DNA from: Zygnema cylindricum
Taxonomy: Eukaryota > Streptophyta > Zygnematophyceae > Zygnematales > Zygnemataceae
DNA: 64,000 nt
Assembly: GCA_037447655.1 (NCBI GenBank)
Contig: JBBHKE010001152.1
Coordinates: 129,293 to 193,292 of the forward strand
Reading direction: 5' to 3'
Every line of letters starts with the position of its first letter. The first letter of the stretch is position 1. The notes beneath the pieces were generated by a model. It saw nothing but the letters and a program-made list of their open reading frames with translations, ran no database searches and was not told the DNA's origin. The position numbers were made by a program, and so were the translations under genes. Of the stretch, positions 30,459 through 59,642 are shown piece after piece.

Positions 30459-33400
30459 ATAGTAGGAATCTGCCTGTCTTTGCTACTTGGTATTGTTCCC
30501 GAATTTCTACTCTCTTGAGTGACCCCTCTTATTAATTCTAATGCTTCTCTGGGCTGGTATCTGTATGCAACTTCAAATGGTGAGAATCATGTACTAGCAT
30601 GTTTACATGAATTGTATGCAAATTCCATTAATGGCAGTTTAGATTCCTATGTGTTGTGAACTCCACTGCAAACAGTCCTAAGCATTTCCTCCAGTGTATG
30701 GTTCATCGTTTCTGTCCGTCTAAAGATGATAAAAGGTACTCATTTTTAATTCAGTGACTAGATTTTGTTGCAATTCTTTCCAAAATGCAGACGTAAATTT
30801 AGAATCTCTATCACTAATTATAGACAGGGGAACTCCATGATGTCTAACCACGTTGTCAAAATATAACTTTGCAATATCTACAACTGAATGAGTAGTTTTG
30901 CAAGGGATAAATATTGCCATTTTAATGAACCTATCAACTACGACCATGATACTGTCATTTCTTCTAGACGTAGCTGGTAACCTGACAATAAAATCTATAC
31001 TGACAGATTCCCATGGTCTTTCGAGGATATCTAAAGGTTTTAAGAAACCTCTAGGTTTCAGGTTACTAGGTTTACTTTGTTGGTAAGGGAAACAACTTTC
31101 CACGTGTTTCGACACCTCTTTTGCCATCCCGTGCAAAAACAATCTACCATGCAACCGACTAAAAGTCTTATCTGGACCTAGATGTCCTAAATGCTCATGG
31201 GTTTCCACTAAAAGTTGTTTTTTTAAGTCTCTCATATCACGAATGCATAGTATATCCTATGTTCGCAAATAAAGTAAACCATCTTCTATTCTAAAGTTTT
31301 TGACATGCCTTTCATTCAATGGGTCAGAATTCCCTCACAAAATATTCTTGCAAATCACAACAAAATAAGGATATTGATCATAACCATTTCTAGCAGCATC
31401 TAAAAACAATCCATCTCGAACCATCACACTTATCTCAAAACATTTACTTAAAGGATCTGCGACTACATTTGTCTTTCTAGGAATATGTTTGACGTTTAAT
31501 TTGAAATATGCCAATTTTTTGCATCCACCTAACCTGTCTACCTGTCATAATCTGTGAATCACTTTATCTTTGTAGATAGGAGAGTGCGTTATTATCACAA
31601 TGAACTGTAAATTGTTTATTATGCAAATAAAAACGCCATTTCACCAATGCATGAACTGATGCAAGTAATTCATTTTCTTGTGCTGGATAGTTTTTTTCAG
31701 CATCATTGAATGTTCGGACTAAAAAGAAATAGGATGAAAAAGTTTTTCGACTTTTTGACTTATGAGTGCACCTAAACTTTTATCAGATGCATCAGTAGTA
31801 ATCAGAACATCAAATTCCCCAGCAGGATCAGGATACACCAGTGTAGGGGTAGAGGTCAACTTCCCTTTTAGTTCCTCGAAAGCTCTCTCCTGGTCGGCTC
31901 CCCACATAAACGTCTCTTTCTCCCGAAGTTAATCTGTCAAAGGTGCGGCGATCATACTGAAGTTCCTGATAAATTTCCTATAATAAGTGGCGAATCCCAA
32001 AAATGATCTAACTTATGTAACATTAGTGGGTTGCTTCCAATTTCGGATTATAGTAATTTTGGATGGATCTGTTTTAACACCCTCCCCGCTAACTATATGT
32101 CCTAATAATAATTGTTCACTGTTAAGAAAAATGGATTTTGACAATTTTCCATATATTTTTCTTTCCCTTAACCTTTCAAATACCTTCTTTAAATGAATTA
32201 CATGTTGTTTTTTAGATTCATTGTAAATTAAAATATCATCTATAAACACCTGAACAAACTCATCTATATAATCAAAAAATGTTTTGTTCATTAATCATTG
32301 ATAATTAGGCGGTGCATTTGTTAAACCAAATGGCATCACTATCCATTCAAAATGACCGACTCTAGTTGTAAATGCAGTTTTATCAACATCTTCAGTTCTA
32401 ATTGGCACCTGATTAAAGCCACTATGCAGATCAATCAAAGAAAATAATTTTGCACCTTTCAAACAATCTATCAAATCAGAAATTAAAGGTAACGGATACT
32501 TATCTTTCACCGTAATCTTGTCCAGACTACGATAGTCGACACACATCCTCAACATTTCGTCTTTCTTTTTGACAAAGAGAACTGGTGCTCCGTACGGTGA
32601 TTTGTTGGGATGAATGTGTCCTTTCTCCACAAGCTCCTTGATCTATTTCTTTAACTCCTGCTCAAAGAAGCTATACTTATAAATTCTTGTGATAGGAATC
32701 ACAGGATTACATCCAGGTTCAAGGTTAATAACATGTTCCACATCTCGAGAAAGTGGCCTCCGTGAGGGTAAGTCACTTGGGAAAACATCTCTAAATTTAA
32801 AGATCAAATCTTTAACAGCATCATCAGATGTATTAATGTTAGTTCCAAAATCAGATTTTTGTCATTCAAGAGTTTTAGTGGTGTCTGATTTAGGAATAAC
32901 ATCAATGCTAGTGTTTTCTCCCCCCCTTTCATCAGTAACTGCCTCAGTTACTAATAACAAGAAAACATCATTTGTTTTATCTTTTAAATGTTTTTTAAAT
33001 TGTTTAGCAAAAATCAAACCTTCCAATCCCAACTTGGTTATGTTATTTAGATGTTTCCTATGCAACTTCTTCAAAGGTAATGCTTGCAAAACCTTCCAAC
33101 AGTTTTTAGACTTCACTCTCAAGGTGTTAGTTTCCCAATTAATTTGAGGATTATGTTCAGTTAACCAATGCTTTCCCAGTATTAGCTCTTGACTACCCAA
33201 ATTTATTATTTCACAAAAATTTCATTTTATGACCTTGGATATCAACTTCTATTGTATGAGTTTGTAAATTTAATATGGACTTATTACCATTTGCTTCCTG
33301 AACATGCAAAGGTTTATCCCTTGTAACTGTAGGAATTTTATTTTCCTCTACAAACTTATGTGAAATAATATTATGCATAGCACCTGAATCTACCATAACT

Positions 33401-37383: not shown

Positions 37384-38550
37384 TGTCAAGCTCGAGTGCT
37401 TTTCAAGCACCCCTTTTTATTACCGAGGATTTCCGTACCCTTCCTACCCGTACTGTTCTCAGATTATGGAGAAACAAGCACTACCAGCCGGAAGGATTAT
37501 AGTATTTCCTCTACGAAACAAGACGCACTTTATTTCGTGCCTAAAGGAGGTCGGACGACAAAGTTTTACAGTCGGAAAGATCGCAGTTCCGTTACATAAC
37601 ACTAGCTTCCACCAGCCCTAGTGGGGGGTATATTGTGGATTGCCACGTAGACTTCCGCACTGTAATCTAGATTATGTTGTTAGCTGCCTGTAGCAATTTA
37701 GTTCAGGTTCAGCTGACCAGTGGTTCATTTATTACATTAAGTCAAAGCTTGGCACTTGTGTGTCCTTTTAGTACTTTGTCTTAAAAACTATGGAACAAAC
37801 AATAACTTTCGGCCGCGGATCTAGCCGTAATCAGAGGTCCAACTTTTTGCCCCAAGTGTAATACACATTATTTTGTCTTATGTCAGTTCGGTTGTCGTTG
37901 CTAGCCGCTCATTGGCTAATAACGTAGGTTTGACTTTTGGACCTGAAACGGGACAAGCTTTTCCTGTATAAGGCACTTGGGGCCGAAGGAGACAGGTTGC
38001 TTTTCAGTACTGTCTCCTATGAAAACCCTCAAAAAATCCAACAAACTTTCTTTTGGAAGAATCTTTGTTTTGTTTGACTCTATTGCCATCATTGTTTTGG
38101 ATTGGTCCATTGTAGGAATCATAGTTCGGGCTGGTAGTTGGCACTTTCGTCCCTTTGGGTGATTTTTGGATTTTTCGTTGCTTGAAACTGAGAAGAGTTT
38201 GGTCGGTTCCGAACTGCGCACACCGAGGGTTGAAGGAGTACCAATCCTATTTACACTACCATCGGGAGAGAGTTCACCCTTGTCTCTTTGTCATCGTAAA
38301 TTGCCGAGATATGTTAAGCTTGCTTCGCCATCTTTTATATCTTCCATCTTATATTTTATTTCTGTGGTCAAGGTGATATTGTTAAATTTGAAACAGCCAT
38401 TCCTATTTATTTCTATATGTCAACGTGGGAGTGCATTGTGTATTCGCTTGTAGTTTCTTTTGCTTTGGCGTGAACTCCCCGGAGTAAAACTGCCACTTCC
38501 TTGTATCGAAACAGTGGGTTTTCAGGAACAAATGTTATAAACTTCCCGTG
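37384..38550 (+). repeat. LTR (B segment) of gypsy D copy 1
   Basis: Closely matches 57080-58250 over its whole length, from TGTCAAGCTCGAG to ACTTCCCGTG. The ~300-bp A segment that precedes B in copy 2 is absent here. Either the LTR is truncated exactly at the A/B border or B alone is the LTR. Confidence 0.75.
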
Positions 38551-41023: not shown

Positions 41024-44000
41024 AGAAATAATTCATCTCGAACCATCACAATTATTTCAAAACATCTACTTAAATGATCTCCGACTACATTTGTCTTTCC
41101 GGGAATATGTTTGACATTAAATTTGAAATATGCTAATTTTTGCAACTACCTAACTTGTCTGCAATCATAATCTGTGCATCACTTAATCTTTGTAGATAGA
41201 AGAGTGCGCTTGTTTTAACTGGTTGATATGTATCACTGGATGAATTTTTGTTGAAGGCGGAAAGTCCAATTTGGCAGCAACTGACGATACTATCTCGATT
41301 ATAGTAAATGGTCCGATGTGCTTAGGAGCAAATTTCCCAGTAGGATCTCTTTGTCCCTCGATCTTGCACTTGTAATGAGTTGTTGAAAGCCAAACCTTGT
41401 CACCTGTGCTTGCCATCCAATCACCCCGTTTTCGATTAGCATTTAGTTCTTGCCTTCTTTGTGCCTCCACTAATGCATCCCGTACTGTTTTCCAAACTGT
41501 TTGAATGTATTCCCAAAATTCCGTTCCAGAACCCCTATTCTCTTGTGTGACCCCTGTTATTAAGTCTAATGCTTCTCTCGGTTGGTATCCGTATGCAACT
41601 TCAAACGGTGAGAATCCTGTACTAGCATGTTTACATGAATTGTATGCAAATTCCATTAATGGCAGTTTAGATTCCCATGTGTTCTGAACTCCACTGCAAA
41701 CAGTCCTAAGCATTTCTTCCAGTGTACGGTTCATCCTTTCTGTTTGTCCATCTGTCTGAGGATGATAAGAGGTACTCAATTTTGATTCAGTACCTAAATT
41801 TTGCTGCAATTCTTCCCAAAATGCAAATGCAAATTTAGAATCCCAATCACTGACTATAGACAGGGGAACTCCATGATGTCTGACCACGTTGTCGAAATAT
41901 AACTTTGCAATATCTACAACTGAATGAGTAGTTTTGCAAAGGATAAAGATTGCCATTTTACTGAACCTATCGACTACGACCATGATACTGTCATTTCTTC
42001 TTCTAGATGTAGTTGGTAACCTTACAATAAAATCCATACTGGCAGATTCTCATGGTCTTTCGGGGATATCTAAAGGTTTTAAGAGACCTCTAGGTTTATG
42101 GTTACTAAGTTTACTCTGTTGGCAAGGGACACAACTTTCCACGTGTTTCGACACCTCTTTTGCCATCCCTGGCCAAAAGAATCTACTCTGCAACCAACTA
42201 AGAGTTTTATCTCGACGTAGATGTCCTAAATACTCATGGGCTTCGTGTAAAAGTTGTTTCCTCAAGTCTCATATTTCAGGAATGCATAACCTATCCCCTG
42301 TTCGCAAATATAGTAAACCATCTTCTATTCTAAAGTTTTTGACATGCCTCTCATTCAATGGGTCAGAATTCCCTCCCGAAATATTCTTGCAAATCACAGC
42401 AAAAAAAGAATCTTTATCATAACCATTTCTAACAACATCTAAAAATAATTCATCTCGAACCATCACAATTATTTCAAAACATCTACTTAAATGATCTCCG
42501 ACTACATTTGTCTTTCCAGGAATATGTTTGACATTAAATTTGAAATATGCTAATTTTTGCAACTACCTAACTTGTCTGCAATCATAATCTGTGCATCACT
42601 TAATCTTTGTAGATAGAAGAGTGCCTTATTATCACTGTGAACTGTAAATTCTTTATTATGCGAATAATAACGCTATTTTACCAATGCATGAACAATTGCA
42701 AGTAATTCTTTTTCCTGTGCTGGATAGTTCTTTTCAGCATCATTAAATTTCCTGGACTCAAAAACAATAGGATGAAAATGTTTCCCGACTTTTTGACTTA
42801 TGACTGCACCTAGACCTTTATCAGATGCATTAGTAGTGATCAAAATTTCATATTCCTCAGCACGATTAGGATACACCAGTGTAGGAGCAAAGGTAAACTT
42901 CCCTTTTAGTTCCTCGAAAGCTCTTTCTTGATCACCTCCCTATACAAACGTCTCCTTCTCCCGAAGTAAATCCGTCAATGGTGCGGCGATCATACTGAAG
43001 TTCTTGATAAATTTTCCGTAATAAGTGGCCAATCCCAAAAATGATCCAACTTCTGTGACATTGGTGGGTTGCTTCCAATTGTGTATTGCAGTAATTTTCG
43101 ATGGATCTGTTTTAACACCTTCCCCACTAACTATATGTCCCAAAAATAATTGTTAACTTTTAAGAAAGCTGGATTTTTACAATTTTCTATATAACTTTCT
43201 TTCCCTTAGCCTTTCCAACACTTTCTTTAGATGAATTACATGTTGTTTTTTAGATTTGTTGTAAATTAAAATATCATCTATAAACACCTGAACAAACTCA
43301 TCTATATAATCAGAAAATGTTGGGTTCATTAATCTTTGATAAGTAGGTGGTGCATTCGTCAAACCAAATGGCATCACTATCCATTCAAAATGACCGACTC
43401 TAGTTCTAAAAGCAGTTTTATCAACATCTTGAGTTCTAATTGGCACCTGATTAAAGCCACTACGCAGATCAATCAAAGAAAATAATTTAGCGCCTTTCAA
43501 ACGATCTATCAAATCAAAAATTAAAGGTAATGGATACTTATCCTTCACCGTAATCTTGTTAAGACTACGATAGTCGACACACATCCTCAACGATTCGTCC
43601 TTCTTTTTGACGAAGAGAACAAGTGCTCCGTACGCTGTCTTGCTAGGCTGAATATGTCCTTTCTCCAAAAGCTCCTTGATTTGTTTCTTTAACTCTTCCT
43701 GCTCAAAGAAGCTATACTTATAAATTCATGTGACAAGAGGATTACACCCAGGATCAAGGTTAATAACATGTTCAACATCTCGGGAAGGTGGCCTCCCTGA
43801 GGTGAAGTCACTTGGGAAAACATCTCTAAATTCAAAAATCAAATCTTTAAAAGCAGCATCAGATGTATTAATGTCAGTTACAAAATCAGATTTTTGTTTT
43901 TCGAAAGTTTTAGTGGTGTCTGATTTAGGGATGATATGAATGGTAGTGTTTTCTCCCCACCTTTCATCAGTAACTGCCTCAGTTACTAAAAACAAGAAAG

Positions 44001-46249: not shown

Positions 46250-46566
46250 GCTATCTACTGATGTACGGAACCATTCAGAATATAGTTCCATACGCAAAAG
46301 TACATCTGCCGGTGTACTTTATGTAGGGACAGTGTAAGACATGCCCTAAATGTCAACACATGTCATACCCAGATTAGGTGCCATAATCTCCGGAGATTCC
46401 ACGATCCAATGTAATTACGCCACGCGTTATACGATGTGGCGATGGCCACAAACCGCCGAAATCTTCTTCCGCGATATCGGCGCTAATTCTGGCTGTCCGA
46501 TTAGAATCGAATTTAATCGTAGCCGTAATAAATACATGCGCGGTATTCGTTTCACTTAAGAAATAA
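46250..46566 (-). repeat. Inverted Copia LTR fragment
   Basis: The reverse complement matches the middle of the family-A LTR, from the GAAACGAATACCGCGC region to GGTTCCGTACATCAGTAGATAG. It abuts a plus-strand RNase H fragment at 46567, so the join is a rearrangement. Sequence at 46175-46249 is not recognised. Confidence 0.8.
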
Positions 46567-47042
46567 ATGACATCACTACTTGGAGTGATGCTAGTTATGG
46601 TGATGCTTCGATGAGGAGATGTACTTCTGGATATTTATTATATGTGGGTGATGGGGATTGCTGTTGGAGGAGCAAACAACAAAAATTTATTGCTCAGTCC
46701 ACCATGGAGGCTTAGTATATGGCCTCTTGCTGTGCTGTAAAAGAATTGATGTGGGTCAAGTCTTTGCTTGGTGAGCTTGGTCACCTTAAGAGTGGTGTGC
46801 ATAAATATTTTTGTGATAATCAGGCAGCAATCGCTATTTCTGCCAATCTTAAACATCATTTTAAAGATAAACACATGGACATTAGACTAAGCTATGTTAG
46901 AGAGAAAGTAGAAATCAAAATAATCAGCTTAGAGTACCGACCAGATAGTGAGATGGTAGCAGATATGATGACCAAACTTGTGCCTTCCCCTAAACTAATT
47001 TTTTGCAGGGAAAAGTGTGGTCTGAAATTAAAGATTGACTAG
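46567..47042 (+). pseudogene. Copia RNase H 3' fragment
   Basis: Homologous to the last ~158 codons of Copia pol: DITTWSDASYGDASMRRC, SKQQKFIAQSTMEA, a TAG stop near 46713, then VKELMWVKSLLGELGHL and the C-terminus KCGLKLKID. Only the RNase H end is present; the 5' side joins an inverted LTR piece. The purine tract and a 3' LTR follow. Confidence 0.9.
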
Positions 47043-47055
47043 AAAATAAGGGGAC

Positions 47056-48111
47056 TCTAGAAATTAATGGTACAATTTTAGTATTTTCTAGGTTTTAAAT
47101 AGAAATATAGAAAAAAGCCGAGGCACTCTACCTCTAACTTCTCTGCCCAAACTCTCAAACTTGTCGCAGTCATTGAGAAATTGAAGAGGGAGCTAGAGCC
47201 ATGGCTACCTAAGCTATCCAGAGGTTTACGGGAAATTTATATTAGTTAGGGTTTATTTATTTAAAAGGATGTGCCGGCGACAGGAGTTGAACCTTGTACC
47301 TACCGGCCGACAGACAAGAAGTAGCCGGTAGCCTTAGCCGTTTTCTCTAGATATAACATTAAGTAGTATATAGTATGATATTTATTTAAACATGTAAACG
47401 TAGGATAAATCATTTAACTGTAATTGTTTACGGTATACATAGATCCGGTAATGTAAAAGTACGGAATACGGTACGAGCAAGAAATCAATACCACGCATTT
47501 ATTTCTTAAGTGAAACGAATACCGCGCATGTATTTATTACGGCTACAATTAAATTCGATTCAAATCCGACGGCCGGAATTTGCGCCGAGATCGCGGAAGA
47601 AGATTTCGGCGGTTTGTGGCCATCGCCACATCGGATGACGCTTGGCGTAATTACATTGGATCGTGGAATCTCCGGAGATTATGGCACCAAATCCGGATAT
47701 GACATGTGTTGACATTTAGGGTATGTCGTACTATGTCCGTACATAAAGTACACTGTCAGCTGTACTTTTGCGTACATAACTCTATTCTGATTGGTTCCGT
47801 ACATCAATAGATAGATTCTGTGAGAGAGATAGGACTTAGAAAAATTAGGAGATAGGACCCTCTCTCCCAGAGAGCTTCTATACAAAAGGTCAACTTTGAC
47901 CCTCCATAACTTACTGCTCAGGGGAGCAAATTCAGAGATTCTTCTTGCTATCGACTTAAGGGAGTCTTCCCTTCTCAAGGGTGTAGGTGCTCAAAGTGTT
48001 TGTCTGCCAGGGTGGCAGTTATTCTTGCTGAAACACAAAGGGGTCAGGATTATCCTAGAGGCTTCTTGGAAGCTGTCCACTCTGAGGACTTATGGAGGTC
48101 TCAAAGTTTCA
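47056..48111 (+). repeat. Copia 3' LTR inserted in gypsy D copy 2
   Basis: A 1056-bp family-A LTR, starting TCTAGAAATT (TG mutated to TC) and ending GTTTCA. Gypsy D gag resumes directly at 48112 with AGGAACTAGTGG, so the Copia element had inserted into D. The left flank is lost. It carries a good minus-strand B-box, GGTTCAACTCC, at 47283-47293. Confidence 0.88.
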
Positions 48112-50313
48112 AGGAACTAGTGGAAATTTTGAAATATCAGGGCCAAGCTACAGCGAGGGCTGGACCCGTCACAATAGATTGGGAGGCTTTGGAGGAAGAA
48201 CGGAGAAAGTTTTGGGAGCAAGAATTGAACCTCATCCGGGAAGCTCGGCAGAGGTTAAGTGGGATCCTCAGTGGGCGGATTCCTCCAACACTAGTAGCGG
48301 AACCCCCGTCCAGAGATCAACCCCAGCCTCTTTCCTTGGAGACTCGTCAGGAACCTCCTTTTTAGCGGGAAGAGGGGGCAGACACAAGACCTAATATTGG
48401 GCGTTTGGGTGCAGATTCACTGTTTGAAATCGCAACGGCTCCACGGGAAGAGCCTACTTTTGTTTCGGTGGAGGTTTCTGCAGTTGTTGAGGCCTTAGTG
48501 GAGTTACGACAGGACGAAAAAATTTAAATACCCCTGAGACCGTCTACACCTCATTGGCCTCCACCTAGACTGTCCCCTGATCCTCCTCCTTTCCCTCCTC
48601 ATCCTCCTAACTCCCAGGATCTGGCAGCAGACCCTGGGACAATCCCCTCTCCTTTCCCTCACCTTTCGTTTCCCTTACTAGAGCAGACCATGGGTCACCA
48701 GTACCGCTGAATTTACCGTATAAGTTAGACGTCTACTCTCCTCCTCACCGGCGTTCCCCATCCTCCAGTTTCAGAACTCCTCCTCCTGAAACCTCTAGAA
48801 GATGGCCCAAGAAACATACCCCTTTTCCGAGACGAACTCCTTCTCCTCAGAAGTGGCCTTTATCGTCTCCTTCTCCATCCGTGCCCCGAGATCAACCTTT
48901 GAACAAACCTCGGATCCACATCCCTTCAGAGGAGACAATTCTTAAGAACGAAAGGTATTCCCGTGGATATCTAGGAGTCGACGAAGGGGAGTGGGCCCTT
49001 CTTTCTACTACCCCAGGCCAGACAAGTCTTCAGACGCAAATACCCTCTGCACCTAGGGGGCCAAGAGTTCTCCCCGAGAGGACACCCTTCCTCCAACCAT
49101 CCTTTCAGGGGTTGGTACTTCCTCTGCGGGAGGAGTATCCACACCTCGCAGAGTAGCACCTCCTACCAAAGGAGAAGGCGCGCTCCAGTCCCGAAGAAGA
49201 GGACAAAGGGGTCACTTTGCCGGCACAGTTCGTCTGTCCCACCGGCCTTTCCTTTTCTTTGTTCACCTTATCAGCGGAAGAAGAGAAAGAAATGGGGGAT
49301 ATTCGAATATTTACAGGGGACAGCTCGGGGATCGTTTTTTGAGATTTTGAGTTGTTGTCGAAATCGTTCACCCAATCTGAAATCAATAAAAACAAGGGAG
49401 GATCAATGCCGAATGACTTCGAGACGACCCTCTTTCCCATGATGGTCAACTACCTCTTTAGAGGGGCGTTAGCAGACTATAAGGAGCGTCAACCTCTTTT
49501 GATGGCTCATAGCATCAAGATATCTGATCCCACTCTTGATGCGGCCGTTTTTCAAGCGGAGGCTGACTTGGCTGCAGCGGCGGCCACCCCTGTGACAGCC
49601 ACATTTACCGATGATATGAAAATGCAGGCCAAAGGAAGGGCATATGTTAACCACCTGCAAGCTATTCAGGCAGCTCGGGCAGCAACACGCATGGTGGCCA
49701 ATCCCACCCCGTGTACCACCCTTATGAATATCTGGCGACTCCTCTACACCGAGAGGAACGAATTGGCCTTCAAGGAATTCACAGAATTCCGATGCTTGAA
49801 GACAAGACACCCCAAACTCTCCTCAACTGTCTATCAAGCCTGTGCTAGAAAACTAAGCTGTCGACCATTGATCTTCCTACAATGGCCACGAAGTATTTCA
49901 TTGCTGTCCTTAATTCCTTCGAACCGACAGGGCAGACTGCTTTGGATAACTAGATTGCAGGACAAGCAATCCAGGACATAAATCCCTCGGCCAATGACAT
50001 ATCCATGGTGGCCATGAAGTTATACGACCACTTCGTTCACAGTGAGGCTAGGGAAAAGGCCATGACCGGCAAGGCAAGAGCAAATTTTGCAGGATTCGCC
50101 GGGGAAACTTCCTTAAGTGTGGAAGAACAAGCGGAACTCCAAGCTTTGCCGAAGCTTAAAGGGAAGCAAGCTGTGGACAGCGGGCTCGAACCTGCAATGG
50201 GGGCAGACGATCCGGTAATTCTGTACAATTGCCTAAATTGTCAACAACCAGGACATGGATGGAAATGCTGCAGCAGGAAACTCAAACCGAAGCTAGCCCT
50301 CAAAGAGAAATAA
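48112..50313 (+). pseudogene. Gypsy D gag with CCHC knuckle, copy 2 (disrupted)
   Basis: Continues the Pro-rich N-terminal region seen in copy 1 (SKEERRKFWEQ-type helix, then a Pro/Ser tract), with stops near 48363 and 48525. The capsid-like part begins about 49350 and includes MPNDFETTLFPMMVNYLFRG, an Ala-rich helix and AKGRAYVNHLQAIQAARAA. A frameshift near 49790 and a stop near 49950 follow. It resumes at 50005 and ends with zinc knuckle CLNCQQPGHGWKCC (about 50228-50270; C-x2-C-x4-H-x4-C), the RNA-binding nucleocapsid signature. The zone 50318-50780 has no clear frame. Confidence 0.8.
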
Positions 50314-50795: not shown

Positions 50796-52202
50796 ATGGC
50801 TGTACAATTGGCTGCTCTTCGTTTGGGATCGACTTATTGGCCTGCTCCTCTTACGGCAGCGCAACGACTCGAAAGACAGAAGCAAGAGTTACTACAAAAG
50901 CTAGCGGAGCTTGAGCTTCAAAACACATCGGGTGTTAACGAAGATGAGATGATGGGCTGGGATTTCGAACCCCCAAATGCCCACAATGCTAGCAGTTTAC
51001 TTCACAGAGCGTGGAATGTGGGAGTGGGAGATGGTTGTAGACAACTTCGCTGTTCAACCTCTGATCAGAGGAGAGACCGGCAGAAAATGAGCAAGAATGA
51101 CCACAACCGGAAGGCCACTGGGCCTTTATCATTCACGCCCCGGGCAATAGTGCTGAACAGTGACACAGGTCTTGGAATAAAGGCCACCCAACCTCCTCCT
51201 CCTCCTCCTAAGCCTAAACTGCCTCCCGATTTCGAAAATTACAAAAACGAGAAACCACAGCAGGAGAAGAAATCACTAGAAGAGGACAAACAAAGCACTC
51301 AAGATTGGTTTGAGCGGTTCATGGCCGAACGTTCAGACGAGGAGGCACCCAAAACTCCACCAATGCCCGATTCCGGTTTTGAAAGTGATTACAACGAGGG
51401 GGACGAAAAGGATCGGGAGCCAGATTCTCTGGCTTCATCCCCGAGAGCCCCACTCCCTTCCTCAAAGCTTGCTGTCATGCTAGTCTGGAACCTTATGCCA
51501 TATGCCTTGACTCATGTTAAGACCCTCGCTTCCTCCCATAATTTGCCCGAAGATATCCTCATTCAGGCCTTGGGAGAAGAAATTCATTCTGGCAAGGACA
51601 AAGTTAACCGGGCAACAACACCCACGACGGTATATTTGTCAGCTGAGCCGAAAACCCCTATCGTGGATAAGGACTACAAAACCATCTCTGTAGCGCTTAT
51701 TCTGAATCGGACGCGCAACTTCAAGCTTAATGGGTACGGCGGGTGCCAAGACGCTGTGGTCGACACCGTAGCACTTCCAAACCTTATCACCACTTCCGCA
51801 TTGCAGAAAATGCCGGGTGAACTCAGACCCCAAATTTGCCCAAGTAACATCTGCTTAAGCACGGTCAACAGCGGCAGTCAGCCCGTCCATAAAATCATCA
51901 AAGCCATGAACATTGAATTCTCCGATGATGCTAGATAGAAGGTGAAAATTGAACTTCCTTTCTTATTGGTAGAAGGGAATCAGTTTGAAATCCTGTTGGG
52001 AATGGCAACTTGGACCTGGATGAATATGAGTTTAAGTGTTTGGAAAGAGCAATGTACAGTTCGGGACCCCGGAAATCTCGAAGGCACCAAAGTTGTGGAT
52101 CCTTTGGATTTATGGAACCGGGGGAAGACTAATGTTCCTGTGTCTGTTGTTACCCAGTGTATTCCACATCCTCTCCGGCGGAGTTGTTCGACATTTCAAT
52201 AG
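50796..52202 (+). pseudogene. Gypsy D linker and aspartic protease (catalytic site decayed)
   Basis: A 380-codon open frame (to 51938) starts with a coiled-coil-like AAQRLERQKQELLQKLAELE. It continues through a charged, Pro-rich linker (QPPPPPPKPKLPPDF near 51187-51230). It ends in a retropepsin-like segment: QDAVVDTVALPNLITTSAL matches the family pattern xxVDTGAxxNLI, with the active-site Gly changed to Val (DTV). After one stop, ELPFLLVEGNQFEILLG (51950-52000) supplies the second conserved protease block ILLG. The protease would process the polyprotein; the lost Gly means this copy is inactive. Confidence 0.72.
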
Positions 52203-52392
52203 ATATCGCAGAAGACATCTAGCAATTCTCGATTTCCAAGCGATGGAAAGGGGAATACACAAATAGATTATTGCAGGTAACAAAACTCCGGCAAAGAGTA
52301 GATCAGGCATTCTCAGCCTTATTATTATTACCGAAAACAGATTCGACCACCCTGTCAAATGTTTTCCCAACCAAGACTGGTAACAAGGACTT

Positions 52393-53430
52393 CAATCGAC
52401 AAGTGGTATCATTGACGGTCTCGACAGCGGACTTCGGATTTTATCTTTATTTTCAGGAATCAGTTCTGATCTGGAAGCATTTTTGAAAGCAAGATATCGG
52501 GTGGAATCATATACAGCACTGGAGATTTCGCCGAAAGCACGCGCTGTCAGCCAACATCGCCTTCATCAGCTGCACCGCCTATATCCTCAACAGCTTCCAG
52601 TGTCTTCCATTTCCAAAGCTCAGAGGAGTCTTCCCTAGAATGTGGATAACATTATGGCACCCCATTTAGCAAATCTGGGCAGAATTGATCTAGTTGTGGC
52701 AGGATGGCCTTGTCAAGGATACTCCCTCGCAGGACAAGGAAAAGGGCATCAAGATCGCAGGAGTAGCACCTTCTACCAAATAATTACATTAATATCGTGG
52801 ATTTAGCAGCTCCAGGACACACCAGTGGGGTACATCTTGGAGAACGTCCACCCGGGGGATGATAAACGAATACAGGTTGCAGACAGCAGGAAACAAGTAA
52901 CCCGGACTTTGAGAGCTCCTTTGGTTTTTGACGCTGCTCACATGGGATCTCAAGCACACAGACTCCGACATATTGGACCAATATGATCCCGCTTCCGGTA
53001 CTCCGGCAACTGTTGGATAAACAGACCCCCAACCCTCACACTGTAGTACAGCAAATACTTGAAGAAGGGAGACTACCCACACTTGTAACCAAACCAGATC
53101 GTCCTCCTTTCTTCCATGTAACACACCCAGAACTCCTCGCCGAGCCCTCCCCACATTGGTCTCTTTTCCTCACAGTCATGCCTACAGAAAAGGAGCAGCT
53201 GGGATGATTTTTGACAACAAGGACGGAATTTGGACAACACCGACAATTTCAAAATGAGAACAAGCCATGGGATTCCATCCGGGAACCAAGCTGCACCAGG
53301 TATTTCAGACCAACAAAGGTGCGTCCTAATCGGGCAAAGCATGGATTTGAATGCCATTACATGGGTTACCAAACACGCTCTTGCATGTTCTAGTCTCCAT
53401 TCTCCAAATTCTCGCAGAAGTTATCTTTAA
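52393..53430 (+). pseudogene. Cytosine-5 DNA methyltransferase domain in gypsy D (disrupted)
   Basis: One frame from about 52393 to 52983 carries C5-methyltransferase motifs in the canonical order. Motif I is LRILSLFSGISSDLEAFL (52432-52485), the AdoMet-binding FxG loop. A motif II-like acidic residue is in YTALEIS. Motif IV is DLVVAGWPCQGYSLAG (about 52693-52740) with the catalytic Cys codon at 52711-52713. Motif VI is GYILENV (Glu at 52840). Motif VIII-like HRLRHI is at 52957-52974. After frameshifts, EQAMGFHPG (near 53258) and QQRCVLIGQSMDLNAITW (near 53318-53375) resemble motifs IX-X. Two TAG stops (52636, 52804), TGA at 52984 and at least two frameshifts inactivate this copy. It lies between protease and RT, in the element's own coding order, so it is part of the polyprotein and not a host gene. 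It would transfer methyl groups to cytosine C5; sequence preference cannot be read. Subfamily (DNMT1, DNMT3/DRM or other) is uncertain. Confidence 0.87.
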
Positions 53431-53479: not shown

Positions 53480-55363
53480 GACAGAGGAGAAAAATTCTAC
53501 ACCCAAGAGTTCCTTTAGTGGGGGGGAACGGTAGTTCAAAAAGGGACAGCTTAGCCGAAGTTGTCAGCAGTAAAGTATTATCCGAAAGAGTAGAGGCGGA
53601 TCCACCGATTGGGCTAGAGATTGACATCAATCTCTGGGGGAGACCACCAAAAGCTTGGACCACAGTTGAGCCGGGGAAGATGGACTGCACTCTGGGGGAG
53701 CAGCTGGACCCTCAGCAGAAAGAACAGCTAACGGAACTCTTGGCCAAAAACAATCAGGTTTTCTCCTGGTCAGAAACAGATGTCGGAATATACAAAGGAA
53801 CCCCCTTTAGTATTGACCTGATGGACGAAACCGCAACTGTTTGGTAGAAACAGTACCCTCTCAGCTTCAAGGAGAAGGAGTTTATCACCGCAAAGGTCCA
53901 AACTTTGGTAGGCGCCGGGTTGGTTCAGGAAAGCACAGGACTCCATGGGTTTGCTTCCCCCACAGTTCTCCCTCCTAAGAAGGATTCATCTGGGAAAACT
54001 GTAGATTTCCGAATGTGTGGGGATTACCGCATGCTGAACACGGCCACCATTCCTGACCGTTATCCAATGCCAACCCCGGAAGAGATTTTTGACTCTCTTG
54101 CCGGGGCCACCATCTTCTCCACACTGGATATGAAGAATGGATTTCACCAGATTGCCATGGAACCAAAACACCGGAAGAGAACAGCATTCTGGGCCAGATC
54201 TAGAGTTTATGAGTGGATTTATATGCCTTTCGGACTGAAGAATGCACCAGCCAAGTTCCAACATGCCATGGACGAAGCGCTCCGAGCAATCGATTGTGCC
54301 CGGTGCTACATCGACGATTTGATAATATTCTCCAAGACCTTTTAAGAACACCTGGAGCATATCCAAATTGTTCTCCGGGCCCTTCAAGCAGCGAGCTTGA
54401 AATGTCACACGGGGAAGGGTATTTTTGGGGTGCACAAAATTATTTACCTCGGACATGAGGTGACTCCTGGGACAGTGGGTCCCCATATGGTTAAGGTTGG
54501 AGCCCTTGACGCTCTTCCTCCCCCGAAGGACATTTCTGCCTTGCGCACCTTTCTCGGCCAGGCCAACTACTATCGCACGTTTATTCCTGAGTTTGGTAGT
54601 CACGCCCAGCCCCTAAATAAGCTATTGCGGAAAGATCAAGAATGGCTGTGGGCCGAGGAATACCAGATCACTTTCGAGTTCTTGAAAGATGGCCTTAAGA
54701 AACACCCAGTGCTCCGGATGCGTGATCACCAGAGACCTTTCCATCTTTACACTGATTGGAGCAGGTTTAGATAGGGAGCGGTTTTGGCCCAAGTTGACGA
54801 CGCCGAAGCCGAGTATGTGGTGGCTTATGCCTGTCGGAGCAACAACCGAGCTGAGGGGAATTATAGCAGTTACCATGGGAAGCTTTTGGCAGCTGTGTGG
54901 GCCATCCAGCATTTCAGGCCTTATTTGTACGGGGTCCCTTTCACACTGATAACCAACCACCAACCTCTAAAATGGATCATGGAGAATAGTAAGTTGACCG
55001 GCAAACTCGCGAGATGGGTGCTTATCCTACAGGAATATGATTTCAGCATCGTTCACCGGGCAGGGGAAATCCATGGGAATGCCGACGGACTTAGCCGAAA
55101 CAGTGATCCTTCTACACTGGATTCCACAGGCGCTCGGCATGACGAAGACCCGGAAATCAGTTTGGGACTCATTCGAGCATCCTCCGCCTTAATTTGTCTT
55201 CCTCCATGTGAGGGGGCACTGTCCACCTTTGCAGCAGATGTTGAGGGGCAGGCACCCATTAGAGTCGGACGGAAAGACATCTGTAACGACTCCGAGGCTC
55301 TCGAATCCATCCAGCAGGGATCACCTCTTCCCCATTTGGCAGGATTTCAATTGTCCCGAGTGT
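53480..55363 (+). pseudogene. Gypsy D reverse transcriptase and RNase H (disrupted)
   Basis: RT begins after a linker (EQLTELLAKNNQVFSWSETD near 53725) and a stop at 53845. Conserved blocks are PTVLPPKKDSSGKTVDFRMC, YRMLNTATIPDRYPMPTPEE, TIFSTLDMKNGFHQI, YMPFGLKNAPAKFQ and the catalytic YIDDLIIF at 54307-54330. A stop at 54343 and a frame change precede the thumb (FLGQANYYRTFIPEFG). RNase H starts near 54740 with HLYTDWSRFR, where a stop follows, and continues 54784-55130 with ETTELRGI-type active-site context and QPLKWIMENSKLTGKLARW. It ends HRAGEIHGNADGLSR, the usual gypsy RNase H end. Decayed but clearly gypsy. Confidence 0.93.
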
Positions 55364-55366
55364 AGA

Positions 55367-56535
55367 CCCGGATGGCGGCTTATGAATGGGACCGAGGTGT
55401 TCTTCTCCGAAAATGGTTAGACCGTACGAGGAAAGTGGTTCCTCCCCCATCAGATCGAGAAATATTGATTACTAATCTCCACAAGCAATGTGGACACTTC
55501 GGGCAGAAGCGGACCACTTCCCTAGTTACAGGCTCGTATTGGTGGCACGGGTTGCGAGCCCAAGTCAACCGAATCGTACAAACTTGCTCTTCTTGCGATC
55601 GAGTTAAGGCCTCCTTTGACAAAAAAGGCGGGACTGAGTTGCATTCTCTCCCTATCCGGGGGATATTTTATCGGTGGTCTTTGGATCTTTTGGGACCTCT
55701 TTGGACCTGCAAACGTGGGAATCGTTTCGTCCTGGTCATGATTGAACATTTCTCAAAATTGATAGAGCTTCTGGTTTTGCCGCGAAAGGAGTCCAAGTCC
55801 ATCGCCGACGCTTTCTTGCAGAGGATCCTGTCACAATTTGGAGGGCAGCAGAGGTTCTGACAGACCAAGGATCGGAATTTGCCAGAGAATTTACAAATCT
55901 TTTGGAGAAATGCCTAATCGACCATCGACTTATAAGTCGCAACCACCCTCAAGCCGACAGTTTGGCCGAAAGGTGCGTACAAACAGTGAAGCAGTCACTA
56001 CGGAAATATGCCGTGCAAGAGGACTTGGGAGAATGGGACAAAAGGGTGCCTTGGATTGCCATGGGATACAGATTCAGCAGACAGGCTTCCCTCCACTCCT
56101 ATAGTCCTTACTTCATCTTATTCGGACAGCATCCCATTCTGCCCGGGGCTACCTCGGCCCAAACAGTGGTGCTCTCGGAAATGGATCACAAAGGGACTGT
56201 CGAAAAACTGATCGCCGATCGTGCCAATATCTTCCACCAAGAGATGCCTCTTGCCATGGGGAATTTACAGGCGGCACAACACCGAGATCAATTGTGGTAT
56301 TCCCAGCGCCAGAACGGGGAATATGTGCCCAGACAGCGACGGTTTATGCCGAGAGATTTTGTATATCGAATGCAACAGAAAAAGGACACGCTTGACATTT
56401 CTGTCGGGCGGGTGATTTTGAAAGTGGTGGAAGTCTCAAACAAGGGAGTTCTGACTTTGGAGGGGAAAGATGGTCGAAGAATTAAAGAGAATCAGATCAA
56501 TGTGGCTCCTTGCCATCTCCGAGGATTGGAAGACG
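55367..56535 (+). pseudogene. Gypsy D integrase (disrupted)
   Basis: HHCC zinc-binding domain: HKQCGHFGQKRT with paired C-x2-C in QTCSSCDRVK (about 55480-55610). Catalytic core: first Asp in RWSLDLLGPL (near 55690); second Asp in LTDQGSEFAREF (near 55855-55885, reached by a frame change after the stop at 55858); Glu in HPQADSLAERCVQT (near 55945-55985). The C-terminal part contains FVYRMQQKKDTLDISVGRV and VLTLEGKDGRRIKENQI, an SH3-like DNA-binding tail. Only one frame break is needed to read the domain, making it the best preserved part of the element. It leads without a break into the PHD finger. Confidence 0.92.
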
Positions 56536-56735
56536 AACCCACTTTCCACATGACTTGCTTTGCCGATCCCCCTTCCTGTTCTTCATCATGTAACCTGTCC
56601 TCCCAGCAGCACGACATCTTGGTCTGCAATCAGTGCGGCCAGTGTTGGCATCCAGCTTGTCTCCCCTCCTCGTGGGAATCACGCTCTCCATCCCCTAGTC
56701 CATGGTTCTACGGGGACTGTGAATTGGGCGGGTAA
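56536..56735 (+). pseudogene. C-terminal PHD finger fused to gypsy D integrase
   Basis: The last ~65 codons of the integrase frame contain CSSSC (56577 and 56589), then CNQCGQCWHPACL: C-x2-C-x4-H-x2-C at 56625, 56634, 56649 and 56658, exactly the central PHD spacing. They end in WFYGDC. A canonical PHD ends W-x-C-x2-C; here the seventh ligand reads Tyr, a probable mutation in this copy. The first pair is spaced x3 rather than x2. PHD fingers usually bind the histone H3 tail (methylated or unmodified Lys4). At an integrase C-terminus, where chromoviruses carry a chromodomain, it could steer integration to chromatin with a given mark. Alternative: a generic zinc-binding tail. Confidence 0.72.
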
Positions 56736-56777: not shown

Positions 56778-58250
56778 TTGGAGGACCGACCCGATTACCG
56801 AGAATCCAAATCCCTTTCCCTAGCCTAATGGGAAAGGAAGGGGGAAAGGAGATCTTTTCGCCCCCCCCCCATTCACTTTCTCTTACTCCCAGTTTCGGTG
56901 TCTCTCCTATCTTTGCATGCATATCTATGGGAAGGATGGGGGGTCAGTAGGGGGCATGATCCTTATTCTGGGAGACCTTTCGCATTTGGGGGGGGGAGGG
57001 GGGTTCTTTGCAGGAATCCGATGCCAACTACCTCGGGCTGTGGGCTCTTCCCTGGGGATTCTCGGGCACGCTCGACAGCTGTCAAGCTCGAGTGCTTTTC
57101 AGGCACCCCTTTTTATTACCGAGGATTTCCGTACCCTTCCTACCCGTACTGTTCTCAGATTAAAGAGAAGCAAGCACAACCAACCAGAAGGATTATAGTA
57201 TTTCCTGTACGAAACAGGAGGCATTTTATTTCGTGCCTAACGGAGGCCGAACGACAAAGTTCTACCGTCTAAAAGATCGCAGTTCCGTTACATAGCACTA
57301 GCTTCCACCAGCCCTAGTGGGGGGTACATTGTGGATTGCCACGTAGACTTCCATACTTTAATCTAGATTATGTTGTTAGCTGTCTGTAGCAATTCAGTTC
57401 AGGTTCAGCTGACCAATGGGTCATTTATTACATTAAGTCAAAGCTTGGCACTTCTGTGTCCTTTTAGTACTTTGTCTTAAAAGCTATGGAACAAATAATA
57501 ACTTCCGGCCGCGGATCTAGCGGTAGTCAGAGGTCCAACTTTTTGCCCCAAGGGTAGTACACATTATTTTGTCTTATGTCAGTTCGGTTGCCGTTGCTGG
57601 CTGCTCATTGGCTAATAGCGTAGGTTTGACTTTTAGACCTGAAACAGGACAAGCTTTTGCTGTATAAGGCACTTGGGGCCAAAAGAGACAGGTTGCTTTT
57701 CAGTAATGTCTCCTGTGAAAACCCTCAGAAAATCCAACAAACTTTTTTTGGAAGAATCTTTGTTTTGTTTGAATTTATTGCCATCATTGTTTTGGATTGG
57801 TCCATTGAGGGAATCATAGTTCGGGCTGGTAGTTAGCACTATCGTCCCTTTGGGTGATTTTCGAATCTTTCGCTGCTTGAAACTGACAAGAGTCTGGCCA
57901 GTTCCGAACTGCGGACACCGAGGGTTGAAAGAGTACCATACCTATTTACACTACCATGGGGAGAGAGTTCGCCCTTGTCTCTTTGTCCTCGTAAATTGCC
58001 GGGGTATGTTAAGCTTGCTTCGCCATCTTTTATATCTTCCATCTTATACTTTATTTCTGTGGTCAAGGTGATATTGTTAAATCTGAAACAGCCATTCCTA
58101 TTTATTTTTATGTGTCCATGTGGTAGTGCATTTGTGTATTCGCTTGTAATTTCTTTTGCTTTGGCGTGAACTCCTCGGAGTAATACTGCCACTTCCTTGT
58201 ATCGAAACAGTGGGTTTGGAGGGAACAAATGCTATAGACTTCCCGTGAAG
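56778..58250 (+). repeat. 3' LTR of gypsy D copy 2 (segments A and B)
   Basis: Segment A (56778-57079) starts TTGGAGGACCGACCC and ends GCTCGACAGC. Segment B (57080-58250) matches the LTR of copy 1 (37384-38550). Placement after the purine tract supports A+B as one 1473-bp LTR. TG/CA termini are not clean, so the limits are approximate to a few bases. Confidence 0.65.
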
Positions 58251-58550
58251 TTGGAGGACCGACCCGATTACCAAGAACCCAAATCCCTTTCCCTGGCCTA
58301 ATGGGAAAGGAAAGGGGAAAGGAGATCCCTTCGCCCCCCCCATGCACTTTCTCTTACTCCCGGTTCCGGTGTCTCTCCTATCTTTGCATGCATATCTATG
58401 GGAAGGATGGGGGGTCAGCAGGGGGCATGATCATTATTCTGGGAAGCCTTTCGCATTTGGGGGGGGGAGGGGGGTTCTTTGCAGGAATCCGAGGCCAACT
58501 ACCCCGGGCTGTGGGCCCTTCCCTGGGGATTCTCGGGCACGCTCGACAGC
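58251..58550 (+). repeat. Second copy of gypsy D LTR segment A
   Basis: TTGGAGGACCGACCC to GCTCGACAGC again, ~300 bp, highly similar to 56778-57079 but followed by different sequence (TTTTTGATTGC) instead of segment B. Probably the start of a second D LTR in tandem, or a recombination product. Confidence 0.8.
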
Positions 58551-58591
58551 TTTTTGATTGCAATAGTCCTTGGGAGTCTAAATGAGGGAGT

Positions 58592-59642
58592 TGTAGAAGT
58601 AATGGTTCTTTTAGTATTTTCTAGGTCTAAAATGAAATGCAGCAAAGATGTCGAGGCAGTCTACCTCTAACTCCTCTCTACAACTTCCACACTTGTCGTA
58701 GTCACTAAAGGTTAAAGAGGGAGCTAGAGCCATAGTTGCCTATGCTGTCTAGAGATAGAGAGACATGCGGTAGATTTTTGTAGGTTTACCAAAATATACT
58801 TAACGGACCCAGGATTTGATCCTAGTACCTACCTCCGTCAAGTTAGCAATAGCCGGTAGCTTTATCCTATGGTCTAGGATTAGTGCTAAGACATATAGGG
58901 TTTGATAGATATTTAAAGATGTACGACTATATAAATTCATTTAACGGCACGAACAAACATGTAACATAGACACAGTTAAAATATACGTACGGCGTATAGT
59001 ACTTCGTGAAATGAATACCGCGCATTTGTTTCAATGGCAAAACAAATATCGCGCATTGATTTTCGACGGCAATAATCAAATGGCGGTTTTAATCGAACGG
59101 CCACGATAGGTGCCAAGATTGCGAAATAGGCGCTTTGGCGTTTTTCGGTCAACGCCACATCAAGCGCCACGTGGCACGTCATCATTGGCTTGCGACATCT
59201 CCGTGGAATATGGGAACTAATCCGGATATGGCAAGTGTCAACATTTTAGCCATGGTGTACGATGGTCGTACAAAAAGTACTTCGGCACATGTACCTTTCT
59301 AAAAGACATAGTCTAGTAACTGGTGTCGTAATCTAGAAGTAGAGGGTTTGGAGAGGGATGTAGGACTTATAAAATTTGGTAGGTAACCCTCTCTCTCCCG
59401 GAGAGCTCCTGTACAAAAGGTCAACTTTAACCCTTCATAACTTACTGCTCAAGGGAGAAAATTCAAAGATTCTTTTTGCTATCGACTCAGGGGACTCTTC
59501 TCTTCACAAGGGTGAAGCTGGTCAAGGTTTTTGTGTGCCAGGGTGGTTGTTATTCTTGCTGAAATACAAAGGAGTCAGGGTTATCCTAGGGGCGTCATCT
59601 GAGCTGCCTACCCTGTGGACCAATGGAGGTCTCGAAGTTGCA
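58592..59642 (+). mobile_element. Solo Copia LTR
   Basis: 1051 bp, starting TGTAGAAGTAATGG and ending AAGTTGCA, with perfect target duplication GGAGT (58587-58591 and 59643-59647). It contains the Copia LTR marks: TTTTCTAGGTCTAAA, the hairpin loop CTTGTCGTAGTCACTAA and the tRNA-like GGATCAAATCC on the minus strand. There is no internal region, so it formed by LTR-LTR recombination. It interrupts sequence following the second A segment of gypsy D. Confidence 0.93.

Follow-up and report, generated by a model that had tools for sequence, protein, structure and literature searches.

The window analysed here is a stretch of 64,000 nucleotides from the genome of the green alga Zygnema cylindricum. 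One gypsy-type element spans positions 37384-58548 of it, with repeats that are split and direct. The Pol of this element holds the gypsy domain set of reverse transcriptase (RT), RNase H (RH) and integrase (IN, Pfam rve). With the protease upstream and the RT downstream, positions 52223-53430 of the forward strand encode a DNMT3-class C5-cytosine methyltransferase (DNMT) domain. The parts of the element are given below, where L numbers stand for loci of the same genome, P numbers for proteins found in database searches, and the motif names are those that we take to apply.

37384-38550 (+), A1, left terminal repeat, starts TGTCAAGC; 92.4% identical to A2, edge read
41705-43677 (-), nested distant gypsy RT-RH-IN inside the element; about 29-42% identical to the family, no DNMT match
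49954-50313 (+), Gag piece with a CCHC-like knuckle, CLNCQQPGHGWKCC; knuckle recognised by eye
51750-52219 (+), protease region; the box reads DTVA, and DTGA in L012
52220-52228 (+), TAG CAA TTC, in-frame stop, conserved, with a 3' context of the readthrough type; from copy comparison
52223-53430 (+), DNMT3-class domain with N-terminal extension, decayed; from motifs, genome profile match and Pfam
52226-52255 (+), hairpin just 3' of the stop, core UUUCC..GGAAA; z -1.84
52438-52461 (+), motif I, ILSLFSGI; from sequence
52705-52725 (+), motif IV, WPCQGYS; Cys codon at 52711-52713
52840-52848 (+), motif VI, ENV; from sequence
52954-52968 (+), AHRLR, motif VIII-like; from sequence
53326-53352 (+), LIGQSMDLN, motif X-like; from sequence
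53848-54558 (+), reverse transcriptase; Pfam RVT_1 7.8e-21, 88% identical to the RT of P0001
54649-55038 (+), RNase H; from Pfam and family comparison
55429-56027 (+), integrase, H2C2 zinc finger and rve core; frame change near 55846
56028-56735 (+), C-terminal tail of the integrase with PHD-like finger; Pfam PHD 0.0021, below cut-off
56778-57077 (+), B1 repeat, ends GACA; 94% identical to B2
57080-58250 (+), A2 repeat; from repeat comparison, edges read
58251-58548 (+), B2 repeat, right end of the element; from repeat comparison, edges read

The window copy

The initial annotation had proposed a methyltransferase between the protease and the RT of a gypsy element. All the motifs that it named are present in the window, and the position holds as well, including in other copies where long open frames join the DNMT to RT and integrase. 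Its start has to be moved: the true domain begins at 52223, directly after the TAG, in a different frame from the start at 52393 given before. The motifs of the window family could be matched to DNMT3A by alignment. Their order is linear, I-IV-VI-VIII-X, and the circular rearrangement of plant DRM-type enzymes is absent. The open piece 52639-52803 matches Pfam DNA_methylase with an E-value of 3.3e-9 (37.1 bits, cut-off 22), while the pieces 52384-52635 and 52807-52983, each searched alone against Pfam, gave no match. A profile search of the algal genome recovers the window copy at 41.9 bits and an E-value of 1.2e-8, and the match contains two TAG.

The frame as first given has stops at 52636, 52804, 52984 and more beyond, and the family match shifts frame near 52420, 52950, 53110 and 53300. 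Judged from these stops and frame shifts, a working enzyme cannot come from the window copy. The region 49343-51938 matches the family copies L012, L013 and L016 at the DNA level. In a relative on contig C1344 the whole element, A1 to B2, takes up 10.6 kb. Some 10 kb of the window copy was therefore probably inserted later, and the nested gypsy on the opposite strand at 41.7-43.7 kb is probably among these insertions.

Several other repeats lie in or near the element. The nested gypsy and a second piece at 30666-32588 (-) are two more gypsy RT-IN regions, about 26-42% identical and with no DNMT match. The end of a copia-like RNase H, recognised by eye at 46716-47042 (+), is apparently nested in the DNMT element, and beside it lies an inverted pair of 319-bp repeats (46251-46569 and 47496-47814, 91.5%). 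Two direct repeats, each about 1.08 kb long (47044-48111 and 58580-59642, 71% identity), have a further copy at 83% on contig C544 (140785-141812); this pair was dropped as a candidate for the element ends once A1 had been found at 37384. The same contig carries, at 136.6-140.8 kb, a closer copy of the window subfamily, about 90-92% identical and cut off in the RT before the DNMT.

Class of the enzyme

When the single domain of L012 was compared with PDB sequences, DNMT3A came first (6.5e-12). A family profile of 15 sequences matched DNMT3A with 4.2e-28 and DNMT3B with 3.8e-26, followed by DRM2 (5.2e-13), M.HhaI (5.5e-9), DNMT2 (9.3e-9) and DNMT1 (0.38). We also predicted the structure of P0033 from an alignment of 27 sequences (mean pLDDT 68, pTM 0.55, with the DNMT part mostly above 90). 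In the 50 rows shown for this model the matches are to DNMT3-family chains, the best being DNMT3A with 5.5e-18 and a target TM of 0.81. Both the PDB profile and the predicted-structure matches place the putative enzyme in the DNMT3 class. The catalytic-type residues are kept in 15 aligned relatives, and it is plausible that the enzyme of the element methylates cytosines of the element's own DNA de novo.

Copies in the genome and selection

The 352.8-Mb genome, in 2689 contigs, contains at least 123 matches to the DNMT domain (PF00145; 123 of 782 candidates gave a score), the window copy included, which is beyond what chance would give. By hand count, 26 of the 123 lie in open frames of at least 500 codons, a few of these matches holding a stop themselves. 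The loci that we read were drawn via DNMT matches, except L024 and L055, which lie beside one of them. They fall into three families: the window/L012 type and the L017/L054 type, both with WPCQGYS, and the L009 type with WECQGMS. L012 and L013 have frames of 1525 and 1520 codons in the order DNMT-RT-RNaseH-IN-PHD. L009 is a single frame of 2395 codons in the order Gag-protease-DNMT-RT-RNaseH-IN-PHD, flanked by identical terminal repeats; its protease is placed by order, as no Pfam match was found for this part. All parts share a single open frame in the L009-type copy, and in the window family Gag-protease is divided from DNMT-Pol by a stop.

In the L009 copy, on contig C1344, A1 and A2 are 100% identical over 931 bp and B1 and B2 99.6%. 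These terminal repeats show that relatives in the same genome moved recently. The window copy itself is an old, dead member of this family of DNMT-bearing gypsy elements. About 3 kb to the left of the forward A of L012 we noticed an inverted A-B unit, L023 (C544:116589-117990), with an A part that is 99.3% identical; it may be a rearranged or a second copy.

Selection on the DNMT was measured as dN/dS from Nei-Gojobori counts on observed codons, and the medians leave out pairs whose dS is saturated or at most 0.05, as well as those with fewer than 60 shared codons. In family A (15 copies) the median is 0.26 for the DNMT (102 pairs) and 0.18 for the RT (75 pairs); in family B (9 copies) it is 0.11 (7 pairs) and 0.07 (5 pairs). 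Synonymous sites are saturated in 27 of the 36 DNMT pairs of family B, yet dN is only 0.11-0.22. The spacer between DNMT and RT is looser, with 0.43 and 0.23. The DNMT is kept somewhat less strictly than the RT, and far more strictly than free sequence; whether it is under purifying selection was a question raised in the initial annotation. Single ratios of close L054-type pairs reach 1.25 (L054-L042, dS 0.008), as would be expected from few changes and decay. The paper on KnitGypsy-Dnmt3 (PMC5890265) gives a Ka/Ks below 0.2; our 0.11 is below this value and our 0.26 above it, the latter including decayed copies.

These results also bear on the possibility that a fragment of a host DNMT gene was inserted once, without function, into a single gypsy copy. 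The broken state of the window copy would fit such an event, but the 123 scored genome matches, the DNMT before RT in the own-genome frames read, the dN/dS well below 1 and the relatives in other species do not. On the number of matches and the purifying selection we reject a one-off insertion as hardly credible.

A conserved stop between protease and DNMT

An in-frame stop lies exactly at the border of protease and DNMT in the window and L054 types. It is TAG in 23 of 24 copies and TAA in L041, and the exact sequence TAGCAATTC (UAG-CAA-UUC) is found in 21 of the 24, the misses being L037, L041 and L046. The 24 copies are genome places, represented by 29 rows because five were fetched twice, and some of them could be two haplotypes of one insertion. 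The protein is kept on both sides of the stop, as ..DIADSI*QFPISKRWE.. and ..DIAPLI*QFPISAEWE... An additional stop within the 39 codons upstream was seen in four of the 24 copies (L045, L047, L053 and the window). Between L012 and L054, 72 of the 95 fourfold sites of the DNMT differ while the nine bases at the stop are the same, and with fourfold sites this near to saturation the shared nine bases cannot be put down to mere recency. The key part of known readthrough signals is the six bases after the stop, with the consensus CAR-YYA in plant viruses, according to the part of PMC2194720 used here; the context CAA-UUC agrees with it in five of six positions, one base off.

A hairpin starts 4-7 bases 3' of the stop. 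In five of the seven copies of the sister family (L017, L042, L045, L051 and L054) its z-scores are -4.8 to -6.5, against -1.8 and -1.6 in L046 and L047. The 16 window-type rows besides the window range from -3.4 to +0.8, and in L037, L041, L049 and L053 a hairpin was looked for and no support was found. When 46 other windows of 50 bases along the frame were scored, none was as low in L054, L051 and L045, compared with one in L012, five in L013, nine in L053 and one in the window copy. We consider the stop and its context to be strong sequence evidence for readthrough, and the hairpin to be strong in one family only.

The mode of expression is not uniform in the clade, as there is no stop between protease and DNMT in the L009 copy, and P0004, P0076 and P0088 have protease and DNMT in one frame. 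In P0034-P0038 together with P0071-P0078, DNMT and RT-RH-IN-PHD are apparently in separate frames; for P0038 and P0078 an identical length of the longest contig (6232) is listed, and the two may come from a single contig. An altered genetic code, with TAG read as an amino acid, was considered and rejected: the frames of 1525 and 2395 codons hold no TAG.

Alternatively, the UAG might not be read through, and DNMT-Pol could be made from a start of its own, by reinitiation, from a subgenomic RNA, or by editing or splicing around the stop. There are relatives that split their frames in other ways, with the DNMT apart from the RT (for example P0038 and P0078), and P0001 has its first Met downstream of the stop at codon 19. 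In L017, L042 and L054, however, no Met is encoded until motif I has been passed. Translation begun at an AUG would there give a truncated enzyme, an argument against a fresh start. The codons beside the stop (QFPIS..WE) are also kept across families with near-saturated fourfold sites, and the six bases 3' of it resemble those of readthrough signals. We think it quite unlikely that DNMT-Pol is made in one of these other ways, and programmed readthrough is the best reading of the conserved UAG.

Similar arrangements are known from SIRE1, Tca2 and MuLV, for which the part of PMC2194720 used here describes an in-frame stop with a CAR-YYA-type context or a 3' RNA structure that likewise splits the products. 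The present stop differs in lying between protease and DNMT-Pol, in its context CAA-UUC and in being a signal predicted from sequence.

Repeats and integration

The repeats follow the plan A-coding-B-A-B, which is DIRS-like, in the window copy and in five of the seven other copies examined. Among the exceptions, C1374 has extra sequence between the repeats, C544 is rearranged and C1407 is incomplete. The element has the ends TGTC..GACA, and B1 and A2 are joined as GACA-GC-TGTC. Exact 4-bp target duplications (TTGG, AAGG and CCCC) flank three of the six copies with edges read; in C449 the duplication differs at one of four bases, and for C1374 and the window no target duplication was found at the edges read. 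Ends and duplications of this kind fit insertion by a DDE integrase. A tyrosine recombinase gave no Pfam match in P0001, P0002 or the polyprotein of L009, and an rve integrase is present, which rules out membership of the DIRS elements.

The PHD-like tail

A PHD finger is found by Pfam after the integrase in L009 (1.5e-9), P0024 (2.9e-10), P0076 (5.8e-11) and P0078 (2.1e-9). In the window family the match is below the Pfam cut-off (P0001 2.4e-4, P0002 0.0044, window 0.0021) and the Cys/His pattern is visible. The ADD finger of DNMT3 enzymes reads H3 unmethylated at lysine 4 (H3K4me0). By analogy, the PHD-like finger might have an ADD-like role, or it might steer the integrase. Chromoviruses likewise have a chromatin-reader tail after the integrase, as far as the sources used here describe them; theirs is a chromodomain, whereas here a PHD-like finger takes its place and a methyltransferase is added. 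Two further domain combinations were noted among the proteins. The domains listed for P0162, a gypsy polyprotein, include PWWP (PF00855), which adds a further chromatin reader carried by a retroelement, and a G-patch domain lies between DNMT and integrase in P0024 and is listed for P0110 too.

Relatives and the position of the DNMT

The protein searches returned 30, 36 (at a threshold of E 10) and 236 matches, of which the best 120 of the 236 were listed, and most come without an organism name. Named streptophyte relatives are from Klebsormidium nitens (P0023, and P0126, which has no DNMT), Closterium (P0029, P0030 and P0064) and the liverwort Marchantia polymorpha (P0133 and P0170). Named relatives from Chlorophyta are from Chromochloris zofingiensis (P0024, by gene id) and Haematococcus lacustris (P0028 and P0125). 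P0164, a distant gypsy that lacks a DNMT, comes from a flatworm. A domain profile made for these relatives left out four long or weak DNMT rows. Wherever a streptophyte protein has both domains (P0023, P0030, P0064, P0133 and P0170), the DNMT precedes the RT, the gene model of P0030 being fused with copia parts. The DNMT of P0024 stands after RNase H and before the integrase, and that of P0125 between the RT and the integrase, RNase H being matched there only in part; the gene model of P0028 has a DNMT and no RT and cannot be placed by order. In the five named hosts the DNMT thus lies before the RT in Klebsormidium, Closterium and Marchantia, and before the integrase in Chromochloris and Haematococcus.

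In a tree of 63 DNMT domains, 19 before the RT and 44 before the integrase, the two positions form the two sides of one branch (100/99). This split is present in all 200 bootstrap trees looked at, from a bootstrap that was not fully settled. The tree leaves out pieces shorter than 231 residues or without a known position, and hence Closterium and Haematococcus, and host DNMT3 is absent from it. A quick DNMT tree of 67 rows gives the same split with a support of 76. In a quick RT-RNaseH-IN tree of 84 rows, which leaves out rows without DNMT and PHD beyond the first 14, the before-integrase rows again lie to one side of a single branch (33 rows, support 80). The 11 before-RT rows are scattered (8 changes), mostly among PHD-bearing rows without a DNMT in frame. 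The frames of these PHD-bearing rows often start just before the RT, and a separate DNMT frame upstream is possible, so that these rows cannot be counted as lacking a DNMT. P0023 is on the same side of the DNMT split as the window family, while the RT-RNaseH-IN tree puts it beside the before-integrase side (84). The long row P0129, with DNMT before RT, falls with the outgroup in the latter tree.

One capture of a DNMT and one move would be the simplest history. We tentatively suggest a lineage carrying both a reader and a writer, namely a PHD reader and a DNMT3-type writer, with dosage by a leaky stop in some families. This lineage would be older than the split of Chlorophyta and Streptophyta, and the DNMT would have moved once across RT-RNaseH, its positions following the two phyla in the five named hosts. 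As a whole we consider this proposal rather unlikely. Host DNMT3 may instead have been captured independently two or more times, once upstream of the RT and once before the integrase. The trees contain no host DNMT3 genes, and a single change of label cannot tell a move from two captures. Against separate captures, the before-integrase rows are set apart by one branch in the DNMT tree and in the RT-RNaseH-IN tree alike, and the PHD occurs in proteins with either DNMT position. We see repeated capture as a serious possibility, if a less than even one. One scan of viral contigs found 10 loci, the best with 45% over 70 residues round the catalytic motif, and no close kin; these loci look like generic methyltransferases, which is no proof against a viral origin.

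Discussion

Taking the evidence together, we consider it highly probable that the window holds a dead copy of a gypsy element with a DNMT3-class DNMT and a PHD-like finger, whose intact relatives would use UAG readthrough, de novo methylation in the particle and DDE integration. The conservation pattern suggests that ribosomes would make Gag-protease and stop at the UAG. A minority would read through UAG-CAA-UUC, in some families aided by the 3' hairpin, and produce Gag-protease-DNMT-RT-RNaseH-IN-PHD. The protease would then free the enzymes inside the particle. There the DNMT would most likely carry out de novo methylation of the double-stranded cDNA or of the new insertion, and the copy would be marked on arrival. 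To judge from the ends and duplications, a DDE-type integrase would insert it with 4-bp target duplications.

The DNMT could instead act on host or rival DNA or on RNA, or its methylation could tame the element for the benefit of the host. Among the proposals of 2018, in the part of PMC5890265 used here, are an RNA substrate (for a LINE enzyme), an influence on the epigenome of the host and a slowing of retrotransposition. The domain is, however, embedded in Pol and would be expected in the particle with RT and integrase, and no separate product is evident from the sequence of the window family. We think action of these other kinds unlikely, and prefer de novo methylation in the particle.

Elements of this kind have been known since 2018, as the initial annotation had noted for retrotransposon-borne DNMTs. 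The parts of PMC5890265 used here report that Dnmt3 was acquired independently in K. nitens gypsy elements, and note a DIRS-like repeat plan for KnitGypsy-Dnmt3. They also report that SymbioDIRS enzymes methylate CG de novo in yeast, while for the K. nitens enzyme no activity was seen in yeast, a result that the authors called inconclusive. KnitGypsy-Dnmt3, as described there, is like the Zygnema element in its gypsy Pol, its intronless, unrearranged Dnmt3-type DNMT, its DIRS-like repeats and its purifying selection, and the K. nitens protein P0023 likewise has the DNMT before the RT, about 37% identical to that of P0001. The Zygnema elements differ by the readthrough-type stop, the PHD-like tail, the 4-bp target duplications and the at least 123 matches in one genome. 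The main text of PMC5890265, figures being outside this check, uses neither the word PHD nor the word readthrough. SymbioDIRS-Dnmt3, in the same source, shares the Dnmt3-type DNMT in Pol and the split direct repeats, but has a DIRS RT and a tyrosine recombinase where we find a gypsy RT and a DDE-type integrase.

In the portions used here, a 2025 paper mentions DNMT3s of retrotransposons, given as LTR Copia and DIRS, from streptophytes and dinoflagellates, and a 2025 paper on Ectocarpus reports an N4/N6-type methyltransferase in a DNA transposon. A 2019 opinion, likewise in part, lists methylase-bearing gypsy and DIRS elements in green algae, charophytes and others, and gives them as absent from land plants, with tracheophytes as an example; the proteins from Marchantia are a case in a land plant that is not a tracheophyte. 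We noticed no description of the readthrough stop, the PHD tail or the two DNMT positions in the portions of the open-licence literature covered. What is new is the conserved UAG, the relatives with two DNMT positions, the PHD-like tail, and the split repeats with 4-bp duplications.

If the leaky stop is confirmed, the dose of the enzyme would be set together with that of RT and integrase, and the enzyme would then probably act in the particle. For the lineage of K. nitens, the separate acquisition inferred in 2018 may have to yield to an older one. Cytosine methylation normally silences transposons. Here selection maintains the methyltransferase that a lineage carries, and this lineage has relatives in algae and a liverwort, raising the question whether self-methylation hides, primes or restrains the element. 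This question becomes testable in hosts that can be cultured.
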